A stretch of 64,000 bases of DNA, from NCBI RefSeq assembly GCF_012568645.1, contig NZ_CP046192.1, forward strand, positions 397,709-461,708, read 5' to 3'. The stretch's first letter is position 1. Each line of letters begins with the position of its first letter. The notes beneath the pieces were generated by a model. The model saw nothing but the letters and a program-made list of their open reading frames with translations. It did not search any database and had not been told where the DNA came from. The stretch is from Enterobacteriaceae endosymbiont of Donacia simplex (GTDB taxonomy: Bacteria; Pseudomonadota; Gammaproteobacteria; Enterobacterales; Enterobacteriaceae). Shown piece by piece: positions 2,009 to 9,250 of this stretch. The translations under genes were made by a program, and so were the position numbers.

Positions 2009-2466
2009 TTAAATATTCTTTTTTAAAAAACGTAATTTATTAATATTCCATTCTTTATTTTTTATAATATTTCTTTTATCGTATTTTCTTTTACCTTTTA
2101 CAATAGCAATTCTTAATTTACACCAAGATTTTTTCCAAAAAAGACCAATAACTACAGCAGTAAAACCTTTTAAATTTATATAATTTTTTAATAATTCTAT
2201 TTCTTTTTTTTTTAATAATAATTGTTTTTTTCTATTATTATCATATTTTATATGATTACAAATTGTCTTTATAGGATTAATATCTAAATTAAATACATAA
2301 ACTTTATTATATAAGAAACTTATATAACTATTAATAATATTAACTCTATTTAATCTTAATGATTTTACTTCCCAACCTTGTAAAATAAGACCTGCATTAA
2401 TTTTTTCCTTAATAAAAAAATTATGGTAAATTTTTTTATTAAAAATAATATATTTTTTTTTTCCAT
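2009..2466 (-). CDS. smpB: SsrA-binding protein SmpB, start codon and body out of frame across an A10 run
   Basis: SmpB is the small beta-barrel protein that carries tmRNA into stalled ribosomes. The body is open from 2461 to the TAA at 2009-2011 (150 codons) and clearly matches E. coli SmpB: INAGLILQGWEVKSLR, then VVIGLFWKKSWCKL and KGKRKYDKR near the basic C-terminus. The only plausible ATG (2466-2464) is followed by G and ten A, so frame zero reads 33 residues and stops; eleven A would give MEKKKYIIFNKK joined to the body. An in-frame TAA at 2494-2492 prevents extension upstream. The gene may be rescued by polymerase or ribosome slippage, start at a non-standard ATT (2449 or 2446), be newly broken, or carry a base-count error. 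It sits directly upstream of ssrA, as in E. coli. Confidence 0.85.
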
Positions 2467-2772: not shown

Positions 2773-3417
2773 ATGAAAAATAATCAATCATCAATTGATA
2801 TTAAAAAAAATAATATAGAAAAAAAAGATGATAAAAATATAAAAGAAAAAAATTGTAAAAATATAAAAAAAAATGAAAATGTTAAAAAACATGATATTGA
2901 ATATTTTAAAGAAAAAAATAATAAGTATAAATTTAAAATTATTGAACTTAAAAAACAATTAAAAGAAAATGAAAATAATATATGGGATTTAAAATTACGA
3001 TCTCAATCTGAAATTGAAAACATAAGACGTAGAACTTTATTAGATATAGAAAAAGCTTATAAATTTTCATTAGAAAAATTTATTAATGAATTATTACCAG
3101 TAATAGATAATTTAGAAAGAGCTATAGATTTAAAAAAAAAACAGAAAAATAATATTGATTTATCTATAATAGAAGGTATTGAATTAACATTAAAATCGTT
3201 ATTAGTATTAATTAAAAAATTTGGTGTAAGTATTATAGATGAAATTAATATACCATTTGATCCTACTCAACATCAAGCGATGTCTATTATAGAATCGGAT
3301 GTAATTAAAGAAAATTATATTTTAAAAATTTTACAAAAAGGATATTTTCTTAATATGAGATTATTAAGACCTGCAATGGTAATTGTATCTAAAACTAAAA
3401 AAATTAATAATAATTAA
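2773..3417 (+). CDS. grpE: Nucleotide exchange factor GrpE
   Basis: Co-chaperone that releases ADP from DnaK in the cytosol. Residues 1 to about 65 are a Lys/Asn-rich low-complexity stretch. A long helical region follows, with the family core RSQSEIENIRRRTLLDIEKA and ELLPVIDNLERAID, and then the C-terminal beta domain with PFDPTQHQAMS and the closing RPAMVIVSK. At 214 residues it is slightly longer than E. coli GrpE (197), owing to the N-terminal stretch. The ATG follows an AAGGA site at 2762-2766. A hairpin terminator lies just downstream. dnaK and dnaJ are not in the window. Confidence 0.95.
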   Translation: MKNNQSSIDIKKNNIEKKDDKNIKEKNCKNIKKNENVKKHDIEYFKEKNNKYKFKIIELKKQLKENENNIWDLKLRSQSEIENIRRRTLLDIEKAYKFSLEKFINELLPVIDNLERAIDLKKKQKNNIDLSIIEGIELTLKSLLVLIKKFGVSIIDEINIPFDPTQHQAMSIIESDVIKENYILKILQKGYFLNMRLLRPAMVIVSKTKKINNN

Positions 3418-8360: not shown

Positions 8361-9250
8361 TTTAGCATATTGATTATTAATTTTTTATTAAATATTTAAA
8401 ATATAATTATAAAAAATATTATTATTTTTAATAAAATATTAAATATATAAATATTATTTATTCTTATTTAGAAAAGTTAATCATATATATTCTAAATTTT
8501 CTAAAATATTACGTATTATATACTTTAATAAAATTTTTTTTTAATTAAAAAATTTTTTAAAATATTAAAATATTAATAATATAAAAAATATTAATATTAA
8601 TTTAAATCTAAATGATATTTTTTATTTAAATAAATAATAAAATAAGAAAAAATATTAGTAATTTTATAAAAATTAAACATATTAAAATTTTAATATTATA
8701 TAAAAGAATTAAGTTTAAATTTTTTAATATCTGTAAGTATATTTTTTAATTAAAAGTTATATTTATATATTTTTAGTTTAATAAAATTTAAATTAATATA
8801 ATTACAATAAATATTTTATAAATTATTTAATTAATAACATTATTTTTATTTATTTTAAAATATGAAATTTTATATTATATAAAAAATTATAAAAAATAAT
8901 TAATAGAAATTATTTTAAAAAAATAAATTTAATATGAAAAAACATATTCTAGTAATTAATTAATTTAAAATATTATTAGTTATTCTTATAAATTTTTTTT
9001 TAAATTATATTACTAATAATATTATCATTATTATAATTATAATTTATTATATTAAAATAAAAGAAAAGTAATAATATTAATTATACTTATAATTTTACTA
9101 AATTTATTATTGTTTAATAAATATTTTTAAGATAGAAATTCTGTTTTTTTATTTTTTTTAATAAAAAATTAATTAAATATTTTTATAAAATTAATTTTTT
9201 TAAATTTATTTAATATATTATTTATATTTTTTATGTAAAAGGTATTATAT
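8361..9250. other. 890-base gene-free A/T stretch between mnmG and nrdA
   Basis: The longest gap in the window. It is nearly pure A/T with very few G or C, no ORF of note and no tRNA-like or repeat-array structure. I see no DnaA-box-like TTATCCACA and no recognisable remnant of rsmG, atpIB or other neighbours of mnmG. It must contain the nrdA promoter close to its right end. Whether it is a dead gene, a replication start region or plain spacer cannot be decided by eye. Confidence 0.6.

Follow-up and report, generated by a model that had tools for sequence, protein, structure and literature searches.

In the symbiont of Donacia simplex, the start codon of smpB lies out of frame with an open and conserved SmpB body, from which it is separated by a run of ten A. 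This out-of-frame ATG is a confirmed observation. The layout is not due to chance, because the same order of ATG, A run and body, with the ATG out of frame, recurs in 14 of 24 genomes of the reed-beetle symbiont genus. Judging from the evolution of the locus and from published cases, we consider it fairly probable that RNA polymerase slippage on the poly(A) run joins the out-of-frame ATG to the functional smpB body.

Layout of the smpB locus

The genome of the D. simplex symbiont comprises 466,924 bases in two contigs. The window, i.e. the whole stretch of DNA that was analysed (64,000 nucleotides), covers positions 397709–461708 of the chromosome (461,708 bases). The features of the locus are as follows.

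2464–2466, minus strand: ATG, the sole plausible smpB start, out of frame relative to the SmpB body
2453–2462, minus strand: A10 run, the proposed slippage site, preceded by a G at 2463 and followed by TATATT
2365–2466, minus strand: frame-zero ORF from the ATG, 33 aa; its length is not conserved and it matches no NCBIfam family
2009–2461, minus strand: open smpB body frame, running to the stop at 2011–2009; conserved SmpB from 2440, 143 codons
2492–2494, minus strand: in-frame stop 5′ of the body frame, which opens that frame 17 codons before the conserved NKK codons
1642–2001, minus strand: ssrA, intact tmRNA gene, starting 7 bases past the smpB stop; tag ANTEKYALAA

A sequence-only reading of this DNA had described the ATG, the G and ten A behind it and the frame-zero product of 33 residues, and these sequence facts are right. 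Its description of an open, conserved SmpB body beside a tmRNA gene with a tag was borne out by profile matches. The body matched the Pfam profile with an E value of 1.5e-41 (profile positions 2–142 of 143), the NCBIfam equivalog NF003843 with 152.8 bits (cut-off 130) and TIGR00086 with 137.3 bits (cut-off 119.1), and residues 1–140 of 143 align with solved structures of SsrA-binding proteins (E 1.6e-39). The body is thus a member of the SmpB family, with curated cut-offs passed, the full domain length present and a tmRNA partner in the genome. The tmRNA scored 167.6 bits against the Rfam tmRNA model (gathering score 47), and a tmRNA gene was found in all 24 genomes of the genus. The same reading had argued that the in-frame stop precludes an upstream start; this holds for D. 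simplex, in which no ATG, GTG or TTG is present in the body frame between the stop at 2494–2492 and the conserved body.

Elsewhere in the window, mnmG is followed by an 890-base spacer (8361–9250). Plateumaris has apparent ATP synthase genes at this place, and no clear remnant of them was found in the spacer.

Recurrence of the out-of-frame start across the genus

The genus sample consisted of 24 genomes, one assembly per species, among the 26 species in Table 1 of Reis et al. 2020 (PMC7289800), with D. versicolorea and D. semicuprea absent. An ATG was located 24–27 bases before the NKK codons in every genome, out of frame in 14 and in frame in 10. The out-of-frame starts comprise A10 after ATGG (eight genomes), A11 after ATG (four) and A9 after ATGG (two). 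Both wrong frames occur: in 12 of the 14 one extra A would bring the ATG into frame, and two (D. sparganii and D. cincticornis) have the other wrong frame. In each case the single break lies inside a homopolymer in a gene that is otherwise open, and the break is kept across species, as expected of the slippage-corrected homopolymer frameshift genes of insect endosymbionts.

The frame of the ATG goes with the length of the run. Runs of at least nine A are found in 14 out-of-frame and four in-frame genomes, and runs of at most eight A in six genomes, all in frame (one-sided Fisher 0.0016, a value that ignores kinship and is therefore not proof). On the tree, run length and frame changed together in two to three independent pairs and never in opposite directions, pairs that are too few to test. 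The genus tree was built from six proteins, and 18 of its 21 inner branches are starred (well supported). The frame state requires at least five changes on it, the same number when starred branches alone are counted, and 9 of 500 label shuffles gave a count as low; when the three frame classes are distinguished, six changes are required. Out-of-frame species occur in Plateumaris, Neohaemonia and Donacia, and seven species with the A10 out-of-frame type form one clade with a support of 100/100.

Other uses of the region were considered. A functional frame-zero peptide is unsupported, as the 14 out-of-frame genomes have frame-zero ORFs anywhere between 8 and 33 aa long. An upstream in-frame start is excluded in D. 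sparganii and D. cincticornis, in which a body-frame stop overlaps the ATG (TAATGG); elsewhere, only two species have an ATG, GTG or TTG in frame ahead of the run, P. braccata at 26 codons upstream and D. dentata at 15. An internal in-frame ATG, GTG or TTG 13 codons into the body was found in 3 of the 14 (clavipes, fulgens and marginata); it is not conserved, and its use would cut off a conserved N-terminal part. In many Donacia (e.g. loci L032 and L036) a TATAAT string overlaps the smpB ATG, probably through composition or descent. We set it aside as a promoter because transcripts starting from it would leave out the ATG.

Selection on the SmpB body and on the ATG

The SmpB body is under purifying selection in the out-of-frame species. 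Pairwise dN/dS (NG86) was 0.12–0.27 in eight out-of-frame pairs and 0.08–0.27 in four in-frame pairs, within the range of typA and mnmG for the same pairs, and no further stops were found inside the body in the out-of-frame genomes.

The out-of-frame ATG is itself retained in 14 of 14 genomes. As a neutral yardstick we took the fourfold-degenerate sites in other genes and compared each with the base in D. simplex. In all members of the seven-species clade that were used, G was unchanged at 0 of 47 such sites, C at 1 of 24, A at 265 of 641 and T at 350 of 775; across the 14 out-of-frame genomes the corresponding counts were 0/27 for G, 0/11 for C, 24/389 (6%) for A and 41/458 (9%) for T. An unused ATG would hardly survive, since a fourfold G was never kept within the clade and the ATG was kept in all 14, and the out-of-frame ATG is probably used as a start. 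Among the Lys columns common to the 14 genomes, 193 of 288 are AAA throughout, so conservation of the run is weaker evidence than conservation of the ATG.

Homopolymers and reading frames in other genes

The assemblies contain many long runs in genes that remain open. ORFs of control genes were counted only where at least 70% of the query was matched in one frame. The first control set (574 ORFs of 26 genes, from the same assemblies) contained 1047 runs of at least nine A and 91 of T inside open frames, and the second (183 ORFs of 10 genes) contained 240 and 19, respectively. Because other genes with at least nine A almost never lose their frame, any correction at smpB must be partial and tolerated by this gene.

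A scan for frame changes with 45-residue pieces (584 + 200 gene–genome pairs) revealed a break in recC at a single position in three Plateumaris and decay of nrdA and nrdB in P. rustica; weak single-piece signals came from priA in P. pusilla and steT in P. rustica, and one from rnpA in P. consimilis proved to be a chance match. In P. braccata, P. consimilis (T10) and P. rustica (T12), a single frame change at a shared position splits recC, and in P. pusilla the run is interrupted and the gene is in frame. From its sequence, Plateumaris recC is a second candidate for slippage correction. In P. rustica, nrdA and nrdB have decayed into several frames; in P. sericea an nrdA-like frame is open.

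Besides smpB, 10 of the 574 ORFs of the first set and 2 of the 183 of the second had no nearby start codon. Six of these are grpE (5 of 23 genomes in another count), traced mainly to repeats and N gaps, and we therefore rejected the loss of the grpE start as an instance of the smpB trait. The N-terminal region of grpE (window 2773–3417) carries species-specific tandem repeats, e.g. in D. crassipes, D. provostii and Macroplea, and N gaps in some assemblies. In D. bicoloricornis, the starts missing from lysA and yidC lie in an N gap or directly beside one; the start-less nrdB is the decayed gene, and the start-less recC of D. piscatrix sits in a gappy assembly. That leaves mutH of D. bicoloricornis and rnpA of D. 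thalassina, the latter located where its stretch ends.

The genome of the D. simplex symbiont holds three copies of the 15-base string ATGGAAAAAAAAAAT found at the smpB start. Its second copy forms the start of a potA-like gene (window 39489) and is in frame, and the third lies in another context. The potA start was in frame in all 19 genomes with a usable match (the five Plateumaris gave no match); in D. marginata and D. thalassina the potA run is shorter. Since potA stays in frame, an out-of-frame start appears to carry a cost, tolerated by smpB but not by potA.

smpB starts in other small genomes

The outgroup sample comprised 60 smpB loci (30 + 30) from genomes of at most 0.9 Mb in other genera of the family, picked from 295, of which 54 were readable by motif. 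An ATG, GTG or TTG was in frame at the expected distance in 52 of the 54, and 18 of these had runs of at least nine A nearby. The out-of-frame trait is thus concentrated in the reed-beetle symbiont genus. The remaining two loci (L152 and L177, from genomes G132 and G205) have in-frame ATT codons there in place of an in-frame ATG, GTG or TTG; the start region of L177 also holds an A12 run. A search of the plasmid collection with smpB gave no informative match, and the search for related loci returned only one relative from the genus.

Explanations for the out-of-frame start

As we propose it, translation would start at the out-of-frame ATG, and RNA polymerase would slip on the A10 run (9–11 A in the relatives), giving a mixed pool of mRNAs. 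Faithfully copied smpB mRNAs would yield the 33-aa peptide and then reach a stop, and the minority with an altered run length would bring the ATG into the SmpB frame and be translated into full-length SmpB. Slippage at transcription is favored because it would account for both wrong frames and for the link with run length. Polymerase slippage had already been suggested by the sequence-only reading, and it emerges as the best explanation from the evolutionary pattern and the published cases; we infer all three of its parts, namely use of the ATG, slippage at transcription rather than translation, and a lowered output of SmpB.

In published work on frameshifted endosymbiont genes, 12–50% of transcripts are reported as corrected at long poly(A) runs (PMC5009743), and full-length transcripts made up about 30% in earlier work (PMC3017870). 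In Buchnera, insertions made in transcription fell almost all in homopolymers (151 of 157; PMC5574713), which fits the 12 of 14 genomes that need an insertion. As counter-evidence, the same study is reported to have detected no restored frame in Buchnera transcriptomes. Selection against A/T runs is described as often evident from nine bases (PMC1088944).

The start and the body could also be joined in translation, by ribosomes that start at the ATG and then slip (−1 at A AAA AAA) or slide on AAA codons. The A AAA AAA heptamer is in phase at the smpB start, a −1 shift gives the frame needed by 12 of the 14 out-of-frame genomes equally well, and sliding on poly(A) has been described for the ribosomes of E. 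coli (PMC4363877). However, the other two genomes need the other frame, so a −1 shift does not serve every member; sliding in the E. coli cell-free system is reported as strong from A11 and slight at A9/A10 (PMC4363877), and 10 of the 14 runs here have nine or ten A; and other genes with AAA runs keep their frame. We regard a ribosomal mechanism as unlikely. A non-AUG start at an AUU in the body frame just past the run, which would make the ATG irrelevant, had likewise been put forward by the sequence-only reading. An in-frame ATT is indeed present at −3 or −2 codons from NKK in each of the 14 (12 of 14 at each position), and the two outgroup loci that have no standard in-frame start (L152 and L177) have in-frame ATTs. 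The proposal is weakened by the preservation of the out-of-frame ATG far beyond neutral sites. In addition, no single codon position is near-cognate in all 14, the ATTs are also present in in-frame relatives, as coding codons, and no Shine-Dalgarno-like string is evident by eye before them. We regard an AUU start as improbable.

It could further be argued that smpB is dying, with the frame break inactivating it and the body a young pseudogene, and frameshifted smpB genes are listed in other bacteria, including two Buchnera strains (PMC4131195). Such a state is very improbable for a break present in a seven-species clade and in 14 of 24 genomes, given the absence of other stops, the dN/dS of 0.12–0.27 and a tmRNA that is intact in 24 of 24. 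An assembly or base-count error in the homopolymer was another alternative offered at the outset, and a single pipeline of short-read Illumina assembly produced 23 of the 24 genomes (M. mutica also has PacBio data; PMC7289800). However, 14 of 24 libraries agree with a trait that follows the tree, and more than a thousand runs of at least nine A lie inside open frames of genes that keep their frame in these assemblies, so an error is very unlikely.

If transcription slippage is indeed the mechanism, the level of SmpB would depend on it. A more far-reaching proposal, which we consider doubtful, is that of a maintained dimmer, in which selection would keep the start out of frame at a slippery length and thereby hold the dose of SmpB and rescue low and governed by slippage in a genus that is ∼75–100 million years old, with the frame free to switch.

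Meaning of the out-of-frame start

If transcription slippage does operate at smpB, a widely conserved gene can persist for long although its start codon is out of frame. The 24 relatives, among which run length spans 5–11 A and each of the three frames occurs, form a natural series for gauging the worth of slippage correction. Published RNA reads (PMC12508126) cover both states, with D. marginata and D. thalassina as A10 species whose start is out of frame and Macroplea mutica as one in frame, which makes the question directly testable. Gene callers will misannotate smpB in such genomes.

Comparison with known systems

Frameshifted smpB (PMC4131195) and slippage-corrected endosymbiont genes (PMC3017870, PMC4389277) are already known; the present case adds the position at the start of the gene, the recurrence and the switching of frames. 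We found no publication on smpB frames in reed-beetle symbionts, and the relevant terms do not occur in the main text of the two symbiont papers.

The closest parallels are the poly(A)/poly(T) frameshifts of Blochmannia and Buchnera, in which slippage during transcription restores the frame (Tamas et al. 2008 and Wernegreen et al. 2010, as presented in PMC3017870, PMC4389277 and PMC5009743). As in those cases, the host genome is that of a reduced, AT-rich insect endosymbiont, a single homopolymer break interrupts a gene that is otherwise open and selected, and the break is common to several species; the frameshifted genes of B. vafer include genes of DNA replication and translation, to which smpB can be likened. 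Unlike them, the smpB break parts the start codon from nearly the whole gene, occurs in both wrong frames and has switched at least five times within one genus.

The frameshifted smpB genes of Hudson et al. 2014, including those of Buchnera BCc and TLW03 (PMC4131195), resemble ours in having a single break in a tiny endosymbiont genome. They are listed as inactivating or as possible sequencing errors, with neither a run nor a rescue discussed in the available text of that paper, whereas in the reed-beetle symbionts the state recurs genus-wide and the body is selected. In dnaX of Thermus thermophilus and mxiE of Shigella (PMC1088944), as proposed for smpB, slippage on about nine A or T/U sets the frame that is read; there it is described as giving either a second product or, late in the gene, an extended one, whereas at smpB it would give the sole functional product, from the start. 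Ribosome sliding on poly(A), as described in PMC4363877, shares the consecutive AAA codons with smpB but is strong only from A11, and the smpB runs are mostly A9 or A10.
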